DNA of 32,443 bases from an uncultured Pelagibacteraceae bacterium (lineage in GTDB: Bacteria > Pseudomonadota > Alphaproteobacteria > Pelagibacterales > Pelagibacteraceae): assembly GCA_902514945.1 (NCBI GenBank), contig CABXSO010000010.1:1-32443 (forward strand), written 5' to 3'. Numbering within the stretch: the stretch's first letter is position 1; the number at the start of each line of letters is the position of its first letter. Under the pieces are notes generated by a model, which was not told where the DNA came from, searched no databases, and saw only the letters and a program-made list of their open reading frames with translations. Positions 3 through 32,443 of the stretch are shown piece by piece. Made by a program: the position numbers and the translations under genes.

Positions 3-2066
3 CATATTTATGTAAGACAAGATAAATACAAGGGAAAGTTGAAATCTGAAAATTGGGTAGGGAGAACTTTTCATAATGGTAAGCAAAAAGTCATATCTTC
101 AGGTACAACCGACCTTGAAGAAGCGAAAATAATTTTAGAAAAGTGGTATGATGATCTTATTTCGGGAAAATTAGAGGAAAATTTGGACAACAAAGAAAAC
201 AACATCAATAATCTTTCTGAAAGTGACATTTCAGATCCAAAGTCAATGGAAAATGAGCAGGTAATAAAAGAAAATACAAAAGACGAAACAATAGAAACAT
301 CCACTCCTAATGTTGAAGAGGAAAAAAAGAAAAAACTTTTTAATATCGATTTATCATCTTTAAAAAATTTATCATCTTTAAAAGACAAATTTTCTTTTAA
401 AGAAAAAGGGACAAATAAAGATGGCACAGAAAAGAAAAAAAGTCTTTCAAACTTTAAGAAACTATTTTCAGAAAAAATAAGTAAAGCAAACGTTGCAGGT
501 GAGGAGATAGCAGGTGTAGATATAAGCGAGGAGTCAATTAAAATAGCTCAACTAAGTAAAAAGGAATCAGATTGGATATTAGAGAAAATTTCCTTAAGAC
601 TTCTTGATAAAAATAAAACGGCAGATGGAATAATTAATTCAAAAGATTATGTATCAGATGAATTGAAACTTGCCATGGATAATTCAAAAATAGCTACCAC
701 TAATGTTGCAATTTCTATTCCAGTAACAAGTGCTATAATCAGAGTTGTAACCAGCCCCTTAATGTCTGATGAGGAGCTTCAAAAAGCAATAGAAACAGAT
801 TCGCTTTGGGAAAATTTAGTTCAACTAACAGACGATTTAAATGAGTATTCAATATTTCATCAGGTGATAAGTAGAAATAATAAAACTAATACAATGGAAA
901 TTCTTTTTGTAGCCTCAAAACTTAGTGATGTTAACTCGTACTCCTCAATAGTTAAAAAGGCTGGATTAAATCCTGTAATTATGGATGTTAAGTGTTTTAC
1001 TTTAAAGAACGCATTCGATAATACTTTAAAGATAGAAAACAAGGCAAATAATGCTTTACTTGAGATTGGAGCTGAAGATAATTATTTAATTATAGTTCAT
1101 GATAATATCCCAATTATTACAGATATTTTTTTGAGGCCCAACGAAAAAGAAATTTTATCACAACACTCCGAAAATATGAATAATACTGACACAGAGAGCG
1201 TAGTAAGACGTTATTCTATGCAGTTAAAACAAGCTTTAAGTGATTATGAGAGCAAATATACGTCAAAGATAAACAATATAAAAATTGTAAGTAATTTAAA
1301 CAATATTGAAGAATTAATTCCCTTATTTAGAAAAAATTTGCTGAATACAGGTCTTCAAGTTTTTGATCCACTGAATGAGATAAAAGTACCTGAATACAAT
1401 AAAGAAAAAACTGACATAAAAAATAGATCTATTTATACATCAGTTTTGGGGTTAGCCTACAGAAAGTTAGATGTATTCGGATACTATAAATTTGTTACAG
1501 CAGTAAAAAATATAAACCTTTTACCAAATAGAGATGCCTTAAAAAGACAAACTAAGATGAAATTTCTTTCTGGCTTTGCGGTAAAAGGTTTGGTTGGTGG
1601 TATTGCAGCTTTATATATCTTTTTGATGGGTTTCTCTTTTTTCCAAATCAATTCAAATAAAAATAAGTTAGTAAATGAAAATAATATTCAGCAAGAATTT
1701 AATCTTATTACAGCTGAGCATAAAAAAGCCAGCAAAATAGCGAATGATATGGAAAAAGCTTTAAAACTTGGATCAATGGTAAATTCAAACCAAACAATTT
1801 CTTACAGGGCCTTAGCTCAAATTACTAGAAGTGTTCCTCAGAGAGTGCAATTCACTAATTTAAATTATAATGGAACAAGTGAAATTATTATAACCGGCTT
1901 AGCTTTTTCTGATCAAGATATTATAAATTTTATATCGAATTTAAATGGCAAAGACCTTATTGATCAAGCTTCTTTAAAAGCAATGAATGTGCCTACTGGT
2001 CAAAATGATTTACAATCAGCAAATAATAAGAAAGGATTTACAATTCTTTGTAAATTGAAAATATGA
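3..2066 (+). CDS. PilM-PilN fusion type IV pilus assembly protein with N-terminal Arm/AP2-like domain (5' partial; open to the window edge)
   Basis: Frame is open upstream of the listed TTG start (reads HIYVRQDKYKGKLKSENWVGRTFHNGKQKVISSGT...). PilM-like actin fold start AGVDISEESIKIAQL; C-terminal TM plus coiled coil typical of PilN (LYIFLMGFSFFQINSNKNK...). Followed by PilO, PilP and secretin genes. Confidence 0.8.
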   Translation, partial: HIYVRQDKYKGKLKSENWVGRTFHNGKQKVISSGTTDLEEAKIILEKWYDDLISGKLEENLDNKENNINNLSESDISDPKSMENEQVIKENTKDETIETSTPNVEEEKKKKLFNIDLSSLKNLSSLKDKFSFKEKGTNKDGTEKKKSLSNFKKLFSEKISKANVAGEEIAGVDISEESIKIAQLSKKESDWILEKISLRLLDKNKTADGIINSKDYVSDELKLAMDNSKIATTNVAISIPVTSAIIRVVTSPLMSDEELQKAIETDSLWENLVQLTDDLNEYSIFHQVISRNNKTNTMEILFVASKLSDVNSYSSIVKKAGLNPVIMDVKCFTLKNAFDNTLKIENKANNALLEIGAEDNYLIIVHDNIPIITDIFLRPNEKEILSQHSENMNNTDTESVVRRYSMQLKQALSDYESKYTSKINNIKIVSNLNNIEELIPLFRKNLLNTGLQVFDPLNEIKVPEYNKEKTDIKNRSIYTSVLGLAYRKLDVFGYYKFVTAVKNINLLPNRDALKRQTKMKFLSGFAVKGLVGGIAALYIFLMGFSFFQINSNKNKLVNENNIQQEFNLITAEHKKASKIANDMEKALKLGSMVNSNQTISYRALAQITRSVPQRVQFTNLNYNGTSEIIITGLAFSDQDIINFISNLNGKDLIDQASLKAMNVPTGQNDLQSANNKKGFTILCKLKI

Positions 2067-2701
2067 ATTTAAATGAACTTAAAAATTTAGATCTTAAAAA
2101 TATTGATGTTAAAGAACTACTTGAAAAATTAAAAAACAGTGAATTATTTAAAGATAAGAAACTTCTAACAAAATTTGGGATTTATTTTGGATCTATTTTG
2201 GTTTTTTTAATTATTTATTACGCTTTTGTTAATCCTAAAGTAAATGCTCAGAAAGAAAGAATTAATTTGATGATACAAAATGAAAAACAAATTAGTGTTC
2301 TTAAACAGGAAATTATATTGCTGAAAGCAAAAATAAAAAAAATTCAACCTGAGTATGATAAAAAAAGTAAACTTTTCCATAGTCAGAAAGAAGTTGAAGG
2401 TCTTTATCAGAATATAAGTAATTTTGCTTCTTTGAACAATTTAAATATAATAAAATTAAACAAAGAAAACCCATTACCAGTTTCTCCAGGTAAAGATAAA
2501 AAAAAAGCTGCTTATTTTAAAATTCCAGTTTCTTATGAAATATCTGGAAATTATTTGGGATATTTGAAATTTAGAAGAGCACTAGCTAAATCTAATAAAG
2601 TTATAAATTTTGACAGAGAAGAGATTAAAGTTATAAAAGGTGGAGGAATTAATTCAGTTGGAACACTTTCAATAGTAGGATTGCCGGATGAATATAAATA
2701 A
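2063..2701 (+). CDS. pilO: PilO-like type IV pilus inner membrane protein
   Basis: Single N-terminal TM followed by coiled coil and a small alpha/beta domain; ATGA overlap with the PilMN ORF; operon position. Confidence 0.7.
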   Translation: MNLNELKNLDLKNIDVKELLEKLKNSELFKDKKLLTKFGIYFGSILVFLIIYYAFVNPKVNAQKERINLMIQNEKQISVLKQEIILLKAKIKKIQPEYDKKSKLFHSQKEVEGLYQNISNFASLNNLNIIKLNKENPLPVSPGKDKKKAAYFKIPVSYEISGNYLGYLKFRRALAKSNKVINFDREEIKVIKGGGINSVGTLSIVGLPDEYK

Positions 2702-3110
2702 AAAATTAATTACTTTTCTATTAACATCTTTGCTTTTTTTTAGTCCAGTCTTTGCTGAAGAAAAGAAAGAATTTGTTGAGGAGGAACTTCCTGCAGTAAA
2801 TCCTTTTTTAGGTGGTGCTACTGGAACAAGTGGTTTATCAGGAGATGATTTGAGTTCTAGTGGATTAACTACTTCATCGGATAAATCAATATCTTTAAAA
2901 AATTTAAAATTAAGTGGAGTTATAATAGGAAAGAACAAAAAATTTGCAATTTTTAATTTACCTGATGGCAGAACTGTTAGATATGAAGAGGATACAGCAA
3001 TTTCGGATGATCTGATGGTTTTAGATATATTTAATCAAGGGATTTTTATCAAAATGAATCAAGTAGAATATTCCCTTGATTTAAACAATAAGTTAACCAA
3101 GGCTGAATAA
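2688..3110 (+). CDS. PilP-like / pilus assembly periplasmic protein
   Basis: Signal peptide, low-complexity linker, small beta domain (LSGVIIGKNKKFAIFNLPDGRTVRYEEDTAI) as in PilP/GspC HR domains; located just before the secretin. Confidence 0.6.
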   Translation: MNINKKLITFLLTSLLFFSPVFAEEKKEFVEEELPAVNPFLGGATGTSGLSGDDLSSSGLTTSSDKSISLKNLKLSGVIIGKNKKFAIFNLPDGRTVRYEEDTAISDDLMVLDIFNQGIFIKMNQVEYSLDLNNKLTKAE

Positions 3111-4660
3111 TGAAACTTGAATATTTTAAGATAATATTATTTTTATTTTGTTTTTCCTTATTAACAAATTGTGCAACTCAAAAAAAATCTGTCCATGGAG
3201 ATAAACCTTTAATTGATCCTTCAAAGGTTGTTGTTGAGGGAACTAAAGAAATGAAAAAAAAAGTTGAATTTGGTCCAAAGCCATATGAAACAGAATTTGA
3301 TCCAACAGCAAATAAAAGAAAGACTATAACAACCGAACAAGTAAGAAATTATGTATCTATTTCTGATGAATATAAAAATTTGAAACAAAATATAAGTTTA
3401 AACCTAAATGGTGTTGATTTTAGAGATGCCATGGAAACACTAGCTGAAATTGGAGATATAAATATTATTATTGGGGAGGAAGTAAGCGGGACACTCACTG
3501 CTAAACTTGAAAATGTTGGTTGGGATGTAGCTTTTCAAACTTTGCTTGATATGAAAACATTAGGAGCTGATATAGATGTAGCAAGAGGAATTATCCGTAT
3601 TCATACACCTGAGAGATTAACTGCTCAAGAAACTTTGAAATCTGCAAGAGCTGAAGTCCTTAAAAAGAAAATTCAATTAGAGGATACAGTTGAACCTATT
3701 TTAGCTGATATTTTTCGATTATATTATATAAGTCCATCTGAGGCTAAAGTTACTTTAGAAAATCTCTTTAAATCTCAGGGCCCTGAGGGAACCAGTACTT
3801 TAAGTTCAATTCAAATTACAGAGGAAAGTATGACCAGATCCATTATTGTTAGAGGTAGAAAAGCAGACTTAGACGTAATCGATGCAGTATTGAAAGAAAT
3901 AGATGTTAAAACACAGCAAGTTTTAATCGAGGCATTTATAGTGACTGCAACTTCAGATTTTCAAAAAGCTTTGGGTACAAGGATTGGAGCAATGTCAAAA
4001 AGAGGCACAAGTGGGGAAACAGATTCTCAAATATTGTCTGGAACAATTGGTGGTTCAGCTACAACAGCAGCTGGCATTTCACTAGGAGCAGCAGCAGGAA
4101 CTGTGACTAACAATTCTATAACAGGTGCCACGAGTGGAATAGGAATAATTAAAACTTTTGGAACAGCGGCTCTTAAACTCGAGATAGAGGCTTTGGAATC
4201 GCTTGGAAAAACAAAAATTATTTCAAGTCCTAGTGTTTTTACTTTAAATAATCAAGAAGCTAAGATTACTCAAGGAACACAAATTGCTTATACAGTTACT
4301 GCAGATGGAACAACTTCAACAGAATTTAAGGATGCTGCCTTGTCTTTAACTGCAACTCCAAGTATTATTGGGGACGGGAATGTATTGTTAGATATTCTGG
4401 TAAACAATGATACACCTGTTGAAGTAGCAGGCTCTGATGAGCCGGGTATTACAAAAAGAGAAATTGATACAAAGCTACTTGTAAGCGATGGAGATATTGT
4501 TGTTATTGGTGGTATTAAAATAAATACTGACACAGCCTCTAACACTAAGACACCAGGATTAGGAAATGTACCAGTTGTTGGAAATTTGTTTAAAGGAAAA
4601 AATAATCAAAATAAGTTAGAAGAAATGCTTATTTTTTTAGCACCTAGAGTAATTAATTAA
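3110..4660 (+). CDS. Secretin, MshL/PilQ family lipoprotein
   Basis: Lipobox-like LLTNCATQ; STN-like and N-domains; secretin C-terminal motifs (VPVVGNLFKGKNNQNKLEEMLIFLAPRVI). Confidence 0.9.
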   Translation: MKLEYFKIILFLFCFSLLTNCATQKKSVHGDKPLIDPSKVVVEGTKEMKKKVEFGPKPYETEFDPTANKRKTITTEQVRNYVSISDEYKNLKQNISLNLNGVDFRDAMETLAEIGDINIIIGEEVSGTLTAKLENVGWDVAFQTLLDMKTLGADIDVARGIIRIHTPERLTAQETLKSARAEVLKKKIQLEDTVEPILADIFRLYYISPSEAKVTLENLFKSQGPEGTSTLSSIQITEESMTRSIIVRGRKADLDVIDAVLKEIDVKTQQVLIEAFIVTATSDFQKALGTRIGAMSKRGTSGETDSQILSGTIGGSATTAAGISLGAAAGTVTNNSITGATSGIGIIKTFGTAALKLEIEALESLGKTKIISSPSVFTLNNQEAKITQGTQIAYTVTADGTTSTEFKDAALSLTATPSIIGDGNVLLDILVNNDTPVEVAGSDEPGITKREIDTKLLVSDGDIVVIGGIKINTDTASNTKTPGLGNVPVVGNLFKGKNNQNKLEEMLIFLAPRVIN

Positions 4661-4661
4661 T

Positions 4662-6380
4662 ATGATTAGATTAGATACTACAAGCGAGCAAAGTATTATA
4701 AATATGCTAAGAGAGCACAATGCTCTAAATGGACAACAAATCAAACAAATTGAAAGTTTAAGTAAGGAGTCTGGAAAGTCTCAAATCGAAACGGCTTTTG
4801 AACTAAACATCACAAACGATACGAAAGTTGCACAGCTTTTATCAGAAAGTTTTTCGATACCATTGGCTAAACTGGATGAGATTAAAATATCAGAGGAAAT
4901 AAAAAAATATACTGAGATTAGATTTTTAAAAGAGAATTATATTATACCATTTGAAGTTGACAATAAATCTATAAAAGTTGCCATTGCTGATGCGTCTAAA
5001 TTTAGTTTAATTAAGAATATTCAAAGCTTAACGAATTTAGAACCAGAACTTTTTGCAGCCTCTATTAAACAAATATCAGATTTTATAACAAGATTAGAAC
5101 AAGGTGCTACAGTTAAACCTAAAAACCAAAAAATAGAACAAATTAAAAAGAAACAAGCTAACGTGCCTTTAGAGGTAGAGTCAGATGTTATAGCTTTTGT
5201 TGATAAAATTCTTAATAAAGCAATCAAATTAGAAACAAGTGATATCCATATTGAACCTTTTAAAGACACTGCCCATGTAAGATTTAGGATCGATGGAGTA
5301 TTAAGAGTGATGGATGAATTTTCTGATTTCTTAAATAAAGATCCTTTAAATTATAATTCTGTTGTAACCAGAATAAAAATAATAAGTAAATTAGATATTG
5401 CAGAAAGAAGAATCCCACAAGATGGTGGTTCTAATTTTAAATATGGTGATAAGGAGATGGATCTTCGTATATCAATAATGCCAACTAAAAATAACGAAAG
5501 AATAGTAATGCGTTTACTAAATAAAGAAGCTGGAGATGTGTCTCTAAATCAACTTGGCTTTGCAGATCAAGACCTAAAACTTTTAGAGGAGGCCATAAAT
5601 TCACCTCAAGGTATGGTACTAGTTACTGGTCCAACTGGAAGTGGTAAAACAACTACTCTCTACAGTATTTTAAAAACAATTAATAAACCATCTATGAATA
5701 TTTTAACTGCGGAAGATCCTGTTGAGTATGAGTTAGAGGGAGTTGGACAAGTTCAAGTAAGAGAAGATATAGGATACACTTTTGAGACAGCATTAAGATC
5801 TTTTTTAAGGCAAGACCCAGAAGTGATACTAGTTGGAGAGATAAGAGATAAAGCAACAGTTGATATTGCCCTAAAAGCTGCATTAACTGGACACTTAGTT
5901 TTTAGTACACTTCATACAAATGATGCGCCAAGCACAATTACAAGACTTCAAAACATGGGAACTCCAGATTATTTGATCTCTGCTGCATGTACTTTAGTTA
6001 TGGCTCAAAGACTGGCAAGAAAGACCTGTCAAGAATGTAGAGCGCCAGACGATAGAATTAATCCAAAAACTCTTACTTCAATTGGTTTTACTGCAGAGGA
6101 AGCATCAAGAATAAGGCCAGTAATTGGAAAAGGTTGCAGTGCATGTGCTAGTGGAGATTCAGGAGTTGGAAATGGCTATAAAGGCAGAATGGGAATTTAT
6201 GAAATCTTAAAAATTACAAAAAATATTAAAGATGCAATATTGAGACAAGCTACTACAGTTGAATTAAAACAAGTTGCGAAACAGGATAACTTTCGAACAA
6301 TGCAGGACATGGGTAAGGAATTAATTGCAACTGGTGATTTATCTTTTAGTGAATATCAAAGAATTTTAAGTTTAGAATAA
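4662..6380 (+). CDS. Type IV pilus extension / type II secretion ATPase (PilB/GspE family)
   Basis: Walker A GPTGSGKTTT, DPEVILVGEIRD Walker B, TGHLVFSTLHTNDAPS, Cys motifs CQEC / CSAC. Confidence 0.95.
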   Translation: MIRLDTTSEQSIINMLREHNALNGQQIKQIESLSKESGKSQIETAFELNITNDTKVAQLLSESFSIPLAKLDEIKISEEIKKYTEIRFLKENYIIPFEVDNKSIKVAIADASKFSLIKNIQSLTNLEPELFAASIKQISDFITRLEQGATVKPKNQKIEQIKKKQANVPLEVESDVIAFVDKILNKAIKLETSDIHIEPFKDTAHVRFRIDGVLRVMDEFSDFLNKDPLNYNSVVTRIKIISKLDIAERRIPQDGGSNFKYGDKEMDLRISIMPTKNNERIVMRLLNKEAGDVSLNQLGFADQDLKLLEEAINSPQGMVLVTGPTGSGKTTTLYSILKTINKPSMNILTAEDPVEYELEGVGQVQVREDIGYTFETALRSFLRQDPEVILVGEIRDKATVDIALKAALTGHLVFSTLHTNDAPSTITRLQNMGTPDYLISAACTLVMAQRLARKTCQECRAPDDRINPKTLTSIGFTAEEASRIRPVIGKGCSACASGDSGVGNGYKGRMGIYEILKITKNIKDAILRQATTVELKQVAKQDNFRTMQDMGKELIATGDLSFSEYQRILSLE

Positions 6381-6381
6381 T

Positions 6382-7614
6382 ATGCTTAATTTCGAATATA
6401 AAGGTATTTCTCAAGGAAAATATGTCGAAGGAGAAATTGAAGCTCTTAATAATTCTGAAGCAGCATATAAGTTAAAAGAACAAAAGGTTATTATTACTAA
6501 GCTTATACAAGCTAAAAAGAAAAAAGTAGAAAAAGTAAAAAAAAAATCTGCAGGGTTTAGCTTTAGTAAAGGTGTAAAAGCTAAAGAAATTTTAATTTTT
6601 TGCAAACAATTTTCTACAATGTTGAGATCTGGACTGCCTGTTTTAAATGCACTGAATTTACTTATTGATCAGACCACTTCTCCAAATATGAAAAAAATTA
6701 TTGAACAAATAAAAAAAGATCTGGAAGCAGGAAATGCTTTGTCTAAATGTTTTGAAAATCACCCAAAAACTTTTGACACAGTAACTGTTAACCTAATTAA
6801 AGCCGGAGAAGCTAGTGGAAAACTAGATACATTTTTAGAGAGAATAGTTATGTCTCTTGAAAAAAGAGAAAAGATTAAATCCCAGATAAAGAGTGCTTTA
6901 TTTTATCCAAGTGTTTTATTAACAGTTGCGCTTAGTGTTACAATTTTTATGTTAATAAAAGTTGTTCCAATTTTCACTGAAATGTATGAGGGGATGGGTG
7001 TTGAGATACCAGGAGCTACCGCTGCAATTATGAGTGCAAGTGCTTTTTTGAGTGGAACAGGTGGCTTTATGAGCTTGGTCATAACAATTGTTACAATAGT
7101 TTTATTTAAAGTTGGTTTGCAAAGAAGCTATCAATTTAGAAAAGCTTGGCATGCTTTTACTTTTAAAATTCCTGTATTTGGAGATTTGATAAGAAAATCT
7201 TTGTTAGCTAGAATTTCACTAGTAATGGGTAATCTTAACCAAGCGGGGGTCGATATACTTGAAAGTTTAGATATTGCTAAATCTGTAAGCACAAATACTA
7301 TAGTAACTGAAGCTTTAGAAAACATAAAAAAAGGAGTTTTTTCTGGAGAAACTCTAACAGCTTTATTTTCAAAAGAAAAAATATTTCCCCCAACCTTTAG
7401 TCAATTAATTTCAGTTGGAGAACAAACTGGAAGTTTAGACTCGATGTTTGCATCAGTTGCTCAGTACTACGAAGAGGAATTTGACACTGCTGTAAGAAAT
7501 TTATCTAGTTTGATTGAACCCATTATGATCGTATTTATGGGTTTAACTATTGGGGGTCTTATGCTTGCTTTATATTCACCAATCTTTAACGTTGGTGCAA
7601 TTATGGGTCAATAA
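6382..7614 (+). CDS. Type IV pilus inner membrane platform protein (PilC/GspF family)
   Basis: Two GspF repeats (FCKQFSTMLRSGLPVLNALNLL; LARISLVMGNLNQAGVDILESLDIAK) and C-terminal EPIMIVFMGLTIG. Confidence 0.95.
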   Translation: MLNFEYKGISQGKYVEGEIEALNNSEAAYKLKEQKVIITKLIQAKKKKVEKVKKKSAGFSFSKGVKAKEILIFCKQFSTMLRSGLPVLNALNLLIDQTTSPNMKKIIEQIKKDLEAGNALSKCFENHPKTFDTVTVNLIKAGEASGKLDTFLERIVMSLEKREKIKSQIKSALFYPSVLLTVALSVTIFMLIKVVPIFTEMYEGMGVEIPGATAAIMSASAFLSGTGGFMSLVITIVTIVLFKVGLQRSYQFRKAWHAFTFKIPVFGDLIRKSLLARISLVMGNLNQAGVDILESLDIAKSVSTNTIVTEALENIKKGVFSGETLTALFSKEKIFPPTFSQLISVGEQTGSLDSMFASVAQYYEEEFDTAVRNLSSLIEPIMIVFMGLTIGGLMLALYSPIFNVGAIMGQ

Positions 7615-7669: not shown

Positions 7670-8134
7670 ATGAATAAAGGTTTTACACTAATTGAATTAC
7701 TTGTTGTTGTAGCTATTATAGGTATCCTTGCTGCAGTTGGTGTAACAGCATATTCTGGCTATACACAATCAGCAAACTTAAACGCTACAAAATCTATGCA
7801 TGCCAATGCTGTAAAAATAATATCAGCAGAGTCAAAACAATGTGAATTAGATCGAACTAATCATAATCCATTTGGGATTACTGGTGCTACTTGCGCAAAT
7901 TTAACAGTTGCCAATATTTTAACTGAGCTAAATAAAACTAACAAAAATCCTCATGGTGGTAATCCTTTCGTGAGTGGGACACCAACTCAAGGACAAGTCC
8001 AAGTTTCAGGGACTTCTATTGTTACATGTGCAGCTAAGAAAAATAATTCTTCGTGTCCTGCAACAGCTAATCAGAAAACTGCTGATGCAGAAAATATAAC
8101 AACAACAATAGATACCACTGGTTTCTCACTATAA
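7670..8134 (+). CDS. Type IV prepilin (class III signal)
   Basis: MNKG^FTLIELLVVVAIIGILAAVGVTAYSGY prepilin leader/TM motif; downstream of pilC. Confidence 0.95.
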   Translation: MNKGFTLIELLVVVAIIGILAAVGVTAYSGYTQSANLNATKSMHANAVKIISAESKQCELDRTNHNPFGITGATCANLTVANILTELNKTNKNPHGGNPFVSGTPTQGQVQVSGTSIVTCAAKKNNSSCPATANQKTADAENITTTIDTTGFSL

Positions 8135-10778: not shown

Positions 10779-12983
10779 ATGAAGATTAAATTAATAAATT
10801 TTGTTTTGTTCATTCTTTTCTTTGCTTTTCTTCCAGCACAAGCTGGAATAGTTGAGCCTGTTTATAAACAACTAAAGGATCCTGGTACAGATGATTTGCC
10901 ATCAACAGTTTCATTGCAAATAACTCCAAATGGAAAAAAAATGTTTGTATTGGATCACCTTGGAAATGCAGGTACTAAAAAAGTTCATATTTATGATTTA
11001 ACAACACCATTTGATCTAAGCACTATGGATGTCACAAACAGATTAAATATAAGTTTAGAAGGTCATGGTGATAATTTATTAGGTAATAATGATAACAAAG
11101 ATATAGAATTTAATAATGATGGAACAAAAGTGTTCTTTTTTAGTGAATATGGTTCATTGCAAATTCATAATTTAACAACTCCATATGATGTAGCTTCAAT
11201 TTCTTCTTCAACACTTGTAGCTGATGACGGACTAAATTACAAAACTAAGTATTCTGTAGATGATATTAAAGGTGTCGAATTTAATAACGATGGAACTAAA
11301 ATGTTTTTTGTTAATGGTAAAACCGCAGGGGCAACAGACATAGCACAAATTAATCTTTCCACTCCATTCGATCCCACGTCAGGAATTAAAGCATATACTC
11401 TTGATACAGAGCCTGCTGGAGTCTTTAAACATACAATGGAAGTATCTTTTGATGACGATGGTACAAGATTATACGTAAGTGAGACTAATAATAATTCAAC
11501 TGGTCTTACAACTTATATGTATGTTTACAAACTATATGATCCATTTGAATTGAGTTCTGCGAATTTTGTTGGCAAATGGCCAATTAAAGGAAATGGAAAC
11601 AATATTTCTGCATATTCCTGGACTTTTGGAAACAATGGAATGAAGCTTTATATCGGAACTGAAGACTTAAATAATGATGGAGATGATATAATTTATGAAT
11701 ATGATTTAACTTGTCCCTATGGAATAGTTATTTGTGAAAGTGAAACAGCATCAGTTGCAAGTGCTCAAGTGGAGATAGCTAAAAATGTTATTCATCAAAA
11801 TACTTCATCAATTTTTAAAAGATTTGAATGGTTGCGTAGAAATGAGAATAAAACAAATTTAAATAGTCATAATTTAAAATTAAATATTAACAATCCAATT
11901 TTAGCATCTTTAACAAATAAGTTACAATCTTCTTTTAAAGATCTTAAATATACTCAAGCATCATTAAAAACAAAAAAACCATTAAATGATAAAAGAAAAT
12001 GGTCCAGCTGGATACATGGAGATATTTCATTTGGAAGAAGGGGTGATACCATCTCATCAAAACCAAAAGGAATTTCCACTAAGGGAATATCGATTGGCAC
12101 GGATAAATTAACCAAAAATGGTAATTTCCTTGGATTTGCTATGAGATACGGTGATGACGATGTTGATATAAAATCTGCAACTAACGAGGAATTAAATTCT
12201 GAATCATTATCTTTTAATATCTATAGCCAATTACCAGGTAATACCTCAAATTTAAATGCTTTATTAGGGTTAAGCTTTTTAAATATAGAAAAAATGGTCT
12301 CTGGAAACACCACTGGTAAACGAATTGGAAAACAAATTTATACAGCTTTAAGTTACGAAGAAGAAAAAAATTACAATAAATTTGACATAATTCCTTATGG
12401 TAAAGCAGAATTAGGGATCACGCAGTTATCTGCATATACTGATTATGGAGCAGAAGGCGCAAATAACGCTGAGATCCATGAGAGACTTACTTTTAGAACA
12501 GGAAATGCATCTGCTGGCTTTAAGTTTGATCACACTTTATATATGGATGAAAGCAGATTAAGTAGAAATGGATTTTTAGAATACGTGTTTGATTTTACTC
12601 CTGATATAGATCATCGTTATAAAAATCACATCGATAATGTCACAGTTGAAAACACTATTAAAAGATATTCATCAAATAACATTAAAGGAAATATTGGTTT
12701 TGAATCATTTAATAAGAGTGGTTATACATTTGCATTAAATTATGAGCGATTTCAAAGTTTAGATAATAGTGCACACACAGATAGTCTCCTTTTTAAATTT
12801 GGAAAACAAAAAAATGAAAATACTAATTTTGATGTAATTTATGATCCTTTAAAAAATAATAATACTGAGATCAGTTACTTAAAAAATTATGATAATTTTA
12901 ATTTGAAAATTAAATCTAATTATGCGATGTATAGTAAAATTCCTGACTATGGTGCAGGCATTGAACTATCAGCAACGTTTTAA
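10779..12983 (+). CDS. Autotransporter-like surface protein: signal peptide, 5 propeller-type repeats, C-terminal beta-barrel
   Basis: Repeats F(N)xDGTKMFF...DLTTPFD; linker KRFEWLRRNENKTNL; C-terminal alternating strands ending in F (GIELSATF). Confidence 0.7.
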   Translation: MKIKLINFVLFILFFAFLPAQAGIVEPVYKQLKDPGTDDLPSTVSLQITPNGKKMFVLDHLGNAGTKKVHIYDLTTPFDLSTMDVTNRLNISLEGHGDNLLGNNDNKDIEFNNDGTKVFFFSEYGSLQIHNLTTPYDVASISSSTLVADDGLNYKTKYSVDDIKGVEFNNDGTKMFFVNGKTAGATDIAQINLSTPFDPTSGIKAYTLDTEPAGVFKHTMEVSFDDDGTRLYVSETNNNSTGLTTYMYVYKLYDPFELSSANFVGKWPIKGNGNNISAYSWTFGNNGMKLYIGTEDLNNDGDDIIYEYDLTCPYGIVICESETASVASAQVEIAKNVIHQNTSSIFKRFEWLRRNENKTNLNSHNLKLNINNPILASLTNKLQSSFKDLKYTQASLKTKKPLNDKRKWSSWIHGDISFGRRGDTISSKPKGISTKGISIGTDKLTKNGNFLGFAMRYGDDDVDIKSATNEELNSESLSFNIYSQLPGNTSNLNALLGLSFLNIEKMVSGNTTGKRIGKQIYTALSYEEEKNYNKFDIIPYGKAELGITQLSAYTDYGAEGANNAEIHERLTFRTGNASAGFKFDHTLYMDESRLSRNGFLEYVFDFTPDIDHRYKNHIDNVTVENTIKRYSSNNIKGNIGFESFNKSGYTFALNYERFQSLDNSAHTDSLLFKFGKQKNENTNFDVIYDPLKNNNTEISYLKNYDNFNLKIKSNYAMYSKIPDYGAGIELSATF

Positions 12984-12987
12984 TCTC

Positions 12988-15288
12988 ATGAAATTTATAA
13001 AAAAATTTATTTTAATTTTTTTATTTATGTTTCCTATCTCTAGCTCATATGGCGCTATGGTAACTAGTGTGCAAAACGAAACATTTGCTGATAATAGCTC
13101 TCGTGAAATAAATGGTATTGCATTTAATGAAGATGGAACCAAATTGTTTACTAGTTACAATATGTTAGCTAATCCTGGAGAAGAAGCGGAGGCCACTTAT
13201 AAGTTAAATGAATATAATCTATCTACTCCGTACGATATCTCTACCAGAACTTACGCTGGAAATGATGAAAGATGTGAATTGAATAGTGAGTCTGATGGTA
13301 CCGGCAATGGTCCATCTGGTGCAAGTGCTAAGTTACATGATATAAAATTTAGTAATGATGGAATGAAAGTATTTGTAGTGTCAGGACCATCTGCTAACAA
13401 TATAGATTCTGATAAAGTATATAGATTTGATTTAACCTCACCTTATGATATTTCAACCTGTTCTTACGTAAGTGAAACTACGAATCTTGACCTCATGAAA
13501 AATCAAAACGGAAGTCAAGCTGGATCAAGAGGTAGTGGAACCGCTGCAAATAAAGAAAAAAACCGTGTTCAAGGTATTGAATTTAATGAGACTGGTACAA
13601 AACTTTTTTTAATTTTTCATGGTCAAAGTAGTTTTCCGGCATCTGAAGGAGGTGGAGTCAGACCAACTAGACTTTTAGAGTATAAACTCTCAACCCCCTA
13701 TGACATAACTGATCTATCACTTGTTACTACAGCGGGAATTGAATTAGAAGATGAGGTTGCTAACCCAAATACAATGAGATTTAGCGAAAATGGAAAAAGA
13801 ATTTTTATTATTGACCACAATAACAATGCGGCAGGTCTTGAAGTTCATCAAATTTCACTTTCAAATCCATATGATACATCTTCATATACAATAGATGGAC
13901 GAGTTAGAACGGCGGATTTAGATGGTGATCATAATGAACCAAGAGGTATTGCATTTAGCAAATCTGGTTTAAAAATGTATGTAGGTGATGATAATGAACA
14001 AAGAATTTATGAATTTGATTTAGTTTGTCCTTTTAATATCATTAAGGGAAAATGTCCTCCAATTACAGAAAACAAAGACAGAACTGCAATGATAGAAGCT
14101 CAAATCGAAATTGCTAAAAGAACTATAGATCATTCAACTGATACTGCTTTAAATCGTTTAAAATGGATAAGAAGAAATAAAGATAATCAAAATTTAACAA
14201 ATCTTAATATTGATTTAAACTTTAACAATCAAATGATTAATTCGTTAACTAAAGCAGTAAAAACTTCTACTAATAAGAAAAAGAAAGAAGATAAAAAAAA
14301 GGACATATTTTATTGGAGTGAAGGAAGTATTGCTGTTGGTAGAATAGGAGACTCGAGTATCGCCTCAACTAAAAAAATTGGTACTGATGCTATTACAGTT
14401 GGTGCAGACAAACTTACTAATAACAATGGAATTAAAGGATTAGCTTTTAGAGTAGGCAGAAATGATGTTGATGTTGGAACTTCGGGAAGCAATTTAGAAA
14501 CCGATACATATAACCTTACATATTACGCAACATCTCCCATCAAAGATGATACAAAGTTTTTAGACACAATCTTTGGTATTGGTGGATTAAGCTCAAATTT
14601 ATTTAATAGTTTAGATGGTAAAAATTTAACTTCTGATAGAAACGGTGGACAAATATATGGAACGATTAGAATTAAAGATGAAATAAAGAAAAATAATCTT
14701 ACCTTAATTCCATCAGGAAGATTTGATATTGGTCATACTATTTTAGATAATTACAAAGAGCCAGGCGGTGGCGCTATAAAAGTAGAAAAACAACATGTTA
14801 GATCAAAAAAAATAAGAGCAGGATTAGCTGCTGTAGAAGATTCATCTAATGATAATTATACTTTTAGAAGACATGGAAAATTAGAGTACGTTGCTAACAT
14901 CGATCGTTCCTCTAATTTTAAATATACTTACGTTTCTGATACTTCTAAGAGGTTTAATGAAAAATTAAAAACCGGATCTTTGCATAATTTAAGTGGTGAA
15001 ATTGGTATTGATATTATTATGCCAAATAGTTTTAGTATTTTTCTAATATATGAGCGTAATCAAGAGTTAGGAACTGGATATACTGATAAAATGCATATTG
15101 CACTTGGATATTTACCAAATCAAAATACTAATTATGCTTTTATAGTTGATGGTATAGATGAACCTAGATCAAATTATATTATCAAAAAGAAAGTAAATGA
15201 TTTTTCAGTTGATTTTAAGTTAACAAATAATTTAATGAATCCTACAGATTACCATGAGGCATCTTTAAATTTGATACGTAAGTTTTAG
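12988..15288 (+). CDS. Autotransporter-like surface protein, paralogue of the preceding gene (start corrected to internal ATG)
   Basis: MKFIKKFILIFLFMFPISSSYGA signal peptide at 12988; five FxxDGTKxF...LSTPYDIS repeats; linker NRLKWIRRNKDNQNL; terminal ..LIRKF. The listed start at 12922 overlaps the upstream gene. Confidence 0.72.
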   Translation: MKFIKKFILIFLFMFPISSSYGAMVTSVQNETFADNSSREINGIAFNEDGTKLFTSYNMLANPGEEAEATYKLNEYNLSTPYDISTRTYAGNDERCELNSESDGTGNGPSGASAKLHDIKFSNDGMKVFVVSGPSANNIDSDKVYRFDLTSPYDISTCSYVSETTNLDLMKNQNGSQAGSRGSGTAANKEKNRVQGIEFNETGTKLFLIFHGQSSFPASEGGGVRPTRLLEYKLSTPYDITDLSLVTTAGIELEDEVANPNTMRFSENGKRIFIIDHNNNAAGLEVHQISLSNPYDTSSYTIDGRVRTADLDGDHNEPRGIAFSKSGLKMYVGDDNEQRIYEFDLVCPFNIIKGKCPPITENKDRTAMIEAQIEIAKRTIDHSTDTALNRLKWIRRNKDNQNLTNLNIDLNFNNQMINSLTKAVKTSTNKKKKEDKKKDIFYWSEGSIAVGRIGDSSIASTKKIGTDAITVGADKLTNNNGIKGLAFRVGRNDVDVGTSGSNLETDTYNLTYYATSPIKDDTKFLDTIFGIGGLSSNLFNSLDGKNLTSDRNGGQIYGTIRIKDEIKKNNLTLIPSGRFDIGHTILDNYKEPGGGAIKVEKQHVRSKKIRAGLAAVEDSSNDNYTFRRHGKLEYVANIDRSSNFKYTYVSDTSKRFNEKLKTGSLHNLSGEIGIDIIMPNSFSIFLIYERNQELGTGYTDKMHIALGYLPNQNTNYAFIVDGIDEPRSNYIIKKKVNDFSVDFKLTNNLMNPTDYHEASLNLIRKF

Positions 15289-31428: not shown

Positions 31429-32443
31429 ATGACAACTATAAAATTTAAAAAATTTAATATTGAAGCTTATCAACCTGGTAAATCAAATGTTAAGAGATTA
31501 AAGAAAATTATCAAGCTTTCAGCAAATGAGTCAGCTCTAGGCGTAAGTGTGAGGGCCAAGAAAGCAATATCAAATGAAAAATTAAATCTTTTCAGATATC
31601 CGGATGGTAAGTCTAAAGAATTGCGAAGTCAGATTTCAAAAAAATTTAATTGTGATAAAGAAAAAATAATTTGTGGAGCTGGTTCAGATGAAGTTATCCA
31701 AATGTTATGCCAGCTTTTTCTTAAACCAAAAGATGAGGTAATTCTTCCTCAATTTAGTTTCTTGATGTATAGGATATATGCAAAAAATAGTTGGTGCAAA
31801 AGTTGTTTTTGCTAAAGAAAAAAATTTGAAAGTTTCTGTTTCGGAAATAATTAAAAAAGTTAATAATAAAACTAAAATCGTATTTCTTGCTAATCCAAAT
31901 AATCCAACCGGTACTTACTTAACCAAGTTTGAACTAATTAATTTAAGAAAAAGATTAAGAAAAAATATTTTACTCGTCGTAGATGATGCTTATGCGGAAT
32001 ACATGCAAAATAGAGATTATAAATCTGGTTTAGATTTATTCAAAAATAAACATAATGTTTTTATATTAAGAACATTCTCGAAAATTTATGGATTGTCTTC
32101 CTTAAGAATTGGTTGGGGTTATGGCTCAAAAAAAATTATAGATGCCTTGAATGTTATTAAACCTCCATTTAACGTTAATGAAGTTGCTCAAAAAGCAGCC
32201 ATTGAGTCTCTTAAGGATAAAAAATTTATTTCACGATCAGTGAAACATAATTTTATTTATGCTTCAAAATTAAAAGATTTTTTGAGTAATTATGATATCA
32301 GTTCTAATAAAGTTTCTGCTAACTTTTTATTATTGGACTTTAATAAATGTAAACTCCAGGCTAAAGGTTTTTTATGAAAAATTAAAAAAAAAGGGAATTA
32401 TTTTAAGGTCTACTGAGGAAGGTTATAAAATAAAAAATATGCT
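31429..32443 (+). pseudogene. hisC: Histidinol-phosphate/aromatic aminotransferase (HisC family) broken by two +1 frameshifts; 3' end beyond window
   Basis: Frame 1 (31429-~31785) KLSANESALG...ICGAGSDEVIQMLCQLF; frame 2 (~31785-32365) IVGAKVVFAKEK...FLANPNNPTGTY...LRTFSKIYGLSSLRIGWG; frame 3 (32367 on) VFYEKLKKKGIILRSTEEGYKIKNM. Confidence 0.85.

Follow-up and report, generated by a model that had tools for sequence, protein, structure and literature searches.

The pilus operon at the contig edge

The window, that is, the whole stretch of 32,443 nucleotides analysed here, is a SAR11 (Pelagibacter) contig, and its first base is also the first base of the contig (C10). This base cuts a pilMN gene. 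The open reading frame at 3-2066 (+), left open by the contig edge, encodes a single protein that reads HIYVRQDKYKG...EKWYDDLISGK, followed by a charged linker, PilM_2 and PilN. The first part (3-170, +) is a 5'-truncated head at the N-terminus of PilM-PilN, a putative arm-binding-type domain as judged from the in-frame ORF and from homology to two recombinases. Next is a charged, variable linker of about 109 residues (171-497, +), the homologues of which are 26-30% identical and predicted to be disordered. The PilM actin-like core (498-1511, +; PF11104 PilM_2, E 4e-24, best stretch residues 171-368) has its start marked by GEEIAGVD. It is joined to the PilN part (1512-2063, +; PF05137 PilN, E 4e-9, residues 604-684), with the stop codon at 2064-2066. 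A membrane helix is predicted in the PilN part at about nt 1575-1650 (+), where the hydrophobic stretch GFAVKGLVGGIAALYIFLMGFSFF is found. These limits of head, linker and core fit the boundaries drawn in the initial annotation.

The PilM_2 and PilN domains lie in a pilMNOPQ-type operon, all of it on the + strand. PilO (2063-2701; PF04350, E 2.7e-7) is followed by a small secreted protein (2688-3110) that is placed as PilP by position and size only, the Pfam search having given no match to PilP. The PilQ secretin (3110-4660; PF00263, E 4.8e-42), the PilB assembly ATPase with an MshEN domain (4662-6380; PF00437, E 4.5e-124; PF05157, E 9e-11), the PilC platform protein (6382-7614; PF00482, E 1.9e-56) and a pilin-like protein (7670-8134), whose N-terminus MNKGFTLIELLVVVAIIGILAAVG was read by eye, make up the rest.

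Because base 1 of the window is base 1 of the contig, the true start of pilMN is missing. The proteins of the nearest relatives (L207-L209, in which the PilM core is up to 92% identical) start with MT(D/N)IISTKDGRLHIYVRQDKYKGKLKSENWVGRT..., so about 13-16 residues are missing from the pilMN of the window and the head is in frame with PilM. The head described in the initial annotation is thus a real part of the protein, and it is found in 68 complete homologues as well. In the same genome, contig C33 opens with the pilT start codon, and pilT is divergent and upstream of pilM in the nearest relatives of the window. Thus, the pilT-pilM intergenic region and the pilM start were probably lost in an assembly gap. 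The operator array expected from the relatives falls outside the window, beyond the contig edge (1-2), and for the window itself this array is a prediction.

Conservation and predicted structure of the head

PilM was matched in 29 of 101 relatives and the head in 16. The head is encoded at 178 loci of the public genome collection; among the best 80 of these, all but two run on into PilM, and those two are interrupted by a contig end or a stop. It is also present in the PilM of at least three further genera of the family. Other SAR11 strains have a PilM-PilN fusion without the head.

Across the 68 complete proteins, the head, with about 57 residues, is the most conserved part (94% median identity, pN/pS 0.06). 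The values are 81% and 0.18 for the PilM core and 63% and 0.38 for PilN. In the common form, the head sits between two hypervariable linkers that are 26-30% identical (pN/pS 0.84-0.89). The head is under strong purifying selection, and since its identity is 94% compared with 26-30% in the linkers, it is not there by chance. In the PilM proteins L050-L129, linkers with almost no sequence constraint, at the pN/pS just given, flank a near-invariant head. The N-terminal acidic linker is missing in the clade of the window, and there the head is at the extreme N-terminus, as in integrases.

The AF2 models of the head have a pLDDT of 62 to 82. For the head of one homologue (pLDDT 81.6), four strands (residues 6-11, 14-25, 28-40 and 43-48) and a helix (54-75) are predicted. 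The strand part of the head has a net charge of +7. In the full-length model the linkers are disordered, with a pLDDT below 50 for residues 130-227 of L115, and the head is separately folded.

Relationship of the head to tyrosine recombinases

When 399 genomes of the genus were searched with a profile of the head, there was one outlier, a 423-aa tyrosine recombinase (L206) that has the same N-terminal domain (E 8.8e-28). A second head-bearing recombinase (L245) was matched by an updated profile (E 3.7e-35). The two are encoded at 3958-5229 (-) of L206 and 6103-7356 (-) of L245, both match Pfam Phage_integrase, and they are 69% identical over their length. Of 57 residues in the window-type head, 39 are identical in the N-terminal domain of L206 and 38 in that of L245 (up to 68%). 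In addition, the PHROG integrase family phrog_1 aligns from residue 32, within the head.

In both recombinases the head is N-terminal, where arm-binding domains sit; PilM itself is without a recombinase domain. An N-terminal arm-binding domain is a hallmark of element integrases and binds element DNA; the one in Tn916 Int is composed of three strands and a helix (PMC8138268). The integrase homology thus supports the view that the head is an arm-binding-type DNA-binding domain common to the tyrosine integrases of small SAR11 elements.

The head has no match among the Pfam and NCBIfam models, and Foldseek of the head model gave no PDB or BFVD match at E <= 0.001 (best PDB E 0.27). There is no clear relative among the PDB sequences, and the head was not found in the phage, viral and plasmid collections; the two integrases are the only ones found with it. 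In hhalign, the match of the head to the Arm-DNA-bind_3 integrases was weak (P 0.004, probability 8.7%, with 1 of 60 column shuffles scoring higher), in a sensible register. Since Pfam does not predict every known arm-binding domain (PMC8138268), the missing Pfam match alone does not exclude the head from this group. The initial annotation had likened the head to the integrase Arm and AP2-like modules. The integrase likeness is supported by the two tyrosine recombinases, though neither the Foldseek search nor the weak Arm-DNA-bind_3 match adds to it, and there is no Pfam match to AP2/ERF at E up to 10.

Other candidates were set aside. A WGR fold, suggested by the resemblance of NWVGR to WGR, found no match to the Pfam WGR models at the same threshold. 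PHROG 17986 and 36698 are weak matches to families of unknown function; a search of the relatives with phrog_17986 returned the PilM heads plus weak matches elsewhere. Among weak matches in other SAR11 proteins, three were examined; these fall within a CoA-transferase-like ORF and were rejected as chance.

Many PilM proteins have the head, across the loci and genera given above, but only two integrases do. This would fit a transfer in the opposite direction, where integrases took the head from PilM, and such a transfer is compatible with a DNA-binding function. We consider it improbable because element integrases generally have an arm-binding domain at the N-terminus (PMC8138268) and because the head of window-type PilM is at the extreme N-terminus, as it is in the integrases.

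Elements that carry the integrases

Both head-bearing recombinase genes adjoin tRNA-Leu(CAA). They belong to an element of about 5 kb (L206 300-5500; L245 2380-7520) with a tyrosine and a serine recombinase, a lipoprotein and small genes, and apart from the tyrosine recombinases the genes of the two elements are nearly identical. In L245, further tRNA-Leu-like remnants are found near 2379-2447 and 7479-7510, which suggests that the element, about 5 kb long, split one tRNA gene and brings a whole copy along. The genome with the L245 recombinase also has a head-bearing PilM. With a complete tRNA-Leu(CAA) gene and a tyrosine recombinase beside tRNA-like remnants, the elements resemble a small tycheposon as described in PMC10872708, a paper that cites the original tycheposon study. 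They differ from that description in having a length of about 5 kb and a serine recombinase in addition.

A site array upstream of pilM and at the element ends

The intergenic region upstream of head-bearing pilM is filled with copies of CTCTAACACAA in both orientations. All 74 head-bearing loci with enough upstream sequence have 5-9 copies in 512 bp (median 7), and at 11 of 11 headless pilM loci there are no copies in the 512 bp upstream; the loci are related by descent, so these counts are not independent tests, and the site matrix was built from a subset of the counted loci, so that the matrix and count sets overlap. The background is 0.019 per kb in block-shuffled sequence and 0.037 per kb in neighbouring DNA. 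An unguided 9-mer count gave the same word in 69 of 70 loci. Most neighbouring sites on the same strand, about 230 of them, are 20-23 bp apart, typically about 21 bp. The array is kept beside differing upstream neighbours, either pilT or one of several other genes. A second word, (T)GTTGATTT, is present upstream of pilM at 50 of 70 head-bearing and 6 of 10 headless loci, and since it is also found at headless pilM it is not tied to the head. The IHF consensus showed no enrichment upstream of pilM.

The ends of the integrase elements carry CTCTTACACAA, which is one base off CTCTAACACAA. The end repeat of the L245 and L206 elements is TTTGTGTAAGA(G), equal to (C)TCTTACACAAA. In L245, TTTGTGTAAGAGTAGTGTAAGAGT is at 2484-2507 and 7401-7424, and a related repeat is at 352 and 5272 of L206. 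Both ends have TTTGTGTAAGAG, the complement of CTCTTACACAAA, and this was found as a repeat without reference to pilM. The variable position is a core pair of bases. Of 497 pilM sites, 485 read TCT-AA-CACA, and the elements mostly read TCT-TA-CACA. In a genome where both systems are present (G516), all eight pilM sites read TAACACA. Paired CTCTTACACA also occurs in four viral contigs, none of which encodes an integrase of the head-bearing kind, and we rejected these pairs as chance.

We suggest that the copies of CTCTAACACAA are probably the landing sites of the head. Nucleic-acid binding by the head, as put forward in the initial annotation, thus gains strong indirect support, since matching repeats lie upstream of pilM and at the integrase element ends.

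Type IV pili often serve transformation, and most of the pilus-bearing genomes tested have both PilT-type (retraction) and PilB-type ATPases. Such features would suit a head that catches incoming DNA at the pilus base. However, ComEC (PF03772) is found in 0 of 25 SAR11 genomes, including 12 with a completeness of 90% or more, and the model used matches 10 of 14 controls. Because ComEC is missing from all 25 genomes tested, a standard role in DNA uptake is unlikely. In addition, CTCTAACACAA, at 0.037 per kb, is rare outside the region upstream of pilM, unlike an uptake sequence, and the head faces the cytoplasm in the expected topology. Thus, we regard the capture of incoming DNA as very improbable, and the initially proposed link to DNA uptake is not supported. 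Most of the 25 genomes have type IV pilus ATPases, apparently without the usual DNA-uptake channel.

Co-occurrence of head and array

In a tree of the PilM core, the headless SAR11 forms are one group, and the head-bearing L065 is nested within it (support 100/97 with L024/L025). There are eight sites upstream of pilM in L065, and none in its headless neighbours. It is possible that L065 re-acquired the head and the array as one block. L258 was scored as headless by pattern, yet it has a variant head and seven sites; thus, the four head/array changes counted are an overestimate. Since head and array adjoin, they could be passed on together as a single block even if the head does not read the array. 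In L065, additional genes separate pilM from pilT.

The head of PilM has an acidic helix side, and that of the integrases a basic one. This would be in keeping with a head that now binds a protein, such as an ATPase or another part of the pilus, while an unrelated regulator reads the array. We give this reading little credence, as the head and near-identical repeats are found together in the integrase elements, and as head and array come and go together, including in the nested L065. Furthermore, 30 of 40 residues of the strand part are kept, as is its positive charge.

A proposed role in regulation of the pil operon

In seven of the eight nearest relatives of the window, there is a promoter-like TTGACA-N17-TATTRT sequence with one site in the spacer and more sites on either side. 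The sites in this clade are in the promoter spacer and over the -10 region. A promoter-like match overlaps a site in only 12 of 77 loci overall, which makes repression elsewhere less certain, and TATAAT is directly before a site in only 7 of 75 loci. Most other lineages have their closest site starting 20-60 bp ahead of the start codon, and there no promoter was recognised with confidence.

On balance, we favor a model in which the membrane-anchored PilM-PilN binds and represses its own promoter through the integrase-type head and the CTCTAACACAA array. The head would recognise CTCTAACACAA, and the flexible linker would join it to the membrane-anchored PilM-PilN. With the predicted membrane helix of PilN, the head would be held at the inner membrane by a tether of about 110-130 residues. 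Because a spacing of about 21 bp is two turns of B-DNA, several heads could bind to one face of the DNA. Since the sites cover the pilM promoter in the nearest relatives, bound PilM-PilN would block RNA polymerase and so repress its own operon, and perhaps the divergent pilT too. PilM-PilN sits at the pilus base, and repression could thus depend on whether it is free or built into the machine. Negative autoregulation is reported for tRNA-associated integrase genes (PMC2951348). We infer the direct binding, the repression, the link to the assembly state and the direction of transfer from integrase to PilM from sequence comparison.

The main rival of autorepression, which may coexist with it, is anchoring. 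Here the head would mainly hold the pilus base at its own locus rather than repress, either for placement of the machine or for coupling transcription to membrane insertion, and a many-headed PilM ring would bind several phased sites together. The long flexible linker with the predicted membrane anchor, the many sites at a spacing of about 21 bp, and the overlap of a promoter-like match with a site in a minority of loci only are all in keeping with it. The sites in the promoter spacer and over the -10 region in the clade of the window speak against it, and we consider anchoring unlikely to be the main role.

A wider model, which we put forward tentatively, would take in either autorepression or anchoring. 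In this model, the pilus machine would read its own gene. The heads of PilM would jointly bind the phased operator array, and the number of free or assembled machines would set the expression of the pil operon, or else the pil locus would be held at the pilus base, with the domain and its sites both taken from an integrase.

Comparison with known systems

SAR11 cells are among the most abundant in the ocean, and few transcription regulators are known in them. Should our model hold, a structural protein of the pilus would regulate or anchor its own genes via a domain that it has in common with a mobile-element integrase. The predicted target of the head is 11 bp. Here a DNA-binding domain and its sites would clearly have changed in step, the pilM version being one base from the integrase version. 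Neither a DNA-binding head on PilM nor operator arrays in front of pilM turned up in our literature search.

As in the PilM/PilN inner-membrane platform of type IVa pili, there is an actin-like PilM core and a PilN, followed by a pilO-pilQ-pilB-pilC operon. The difference is that here the two are one protein, with an N-terminal head of DNA-binding type and a long linker. ToxR and CadC are membrane-bound one-component regulators, and they too have a DNA-binding domain tethered to the inner membrane. However, the head is not a winged helix, and its tether is a structural part of the pilus machine.

The arm-binding domains of lambda Int, Tn916 Int and genomic-island integrases (Pfam clan CL0081) resemble the head in its N-terminal position in the two SAR11 recombinases and, going by the AF2 model, may do so in the order of strands then helix. 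Short repeats at both ends of the SAR11 element, which encodes the homologous head, are a further likeness. The differences are that the head is joined to a pilus protein, with neither a core-binding nor a catalytic domain, that it is unmatched by any Pfam arm model, and that its model has one extra N-terminal strand. The intS gene of prophage KplE1 is a tRNA-associated integrase gene with sites that overlap its own promoter (PMC2951348), though in the present case the domain and sites would serve a pilus operon and not recombination.

Other features of the window

Beside the pilus operon, at 10779-15288, two neighbouring proteins of 734 and 788 aa resemble each other and contain repeats of the TPYD type. 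An adhesin that adjoins SAR11 pilus genes has been reported (PMC12636525), and these proteins may be that adhesin. At 31429-32377, an aminotransferase-like sequence (HisC by eye) is read in two overlapping frames (31429-31815 and 31778-32377), which suggests a frameshift or a sequencing error.
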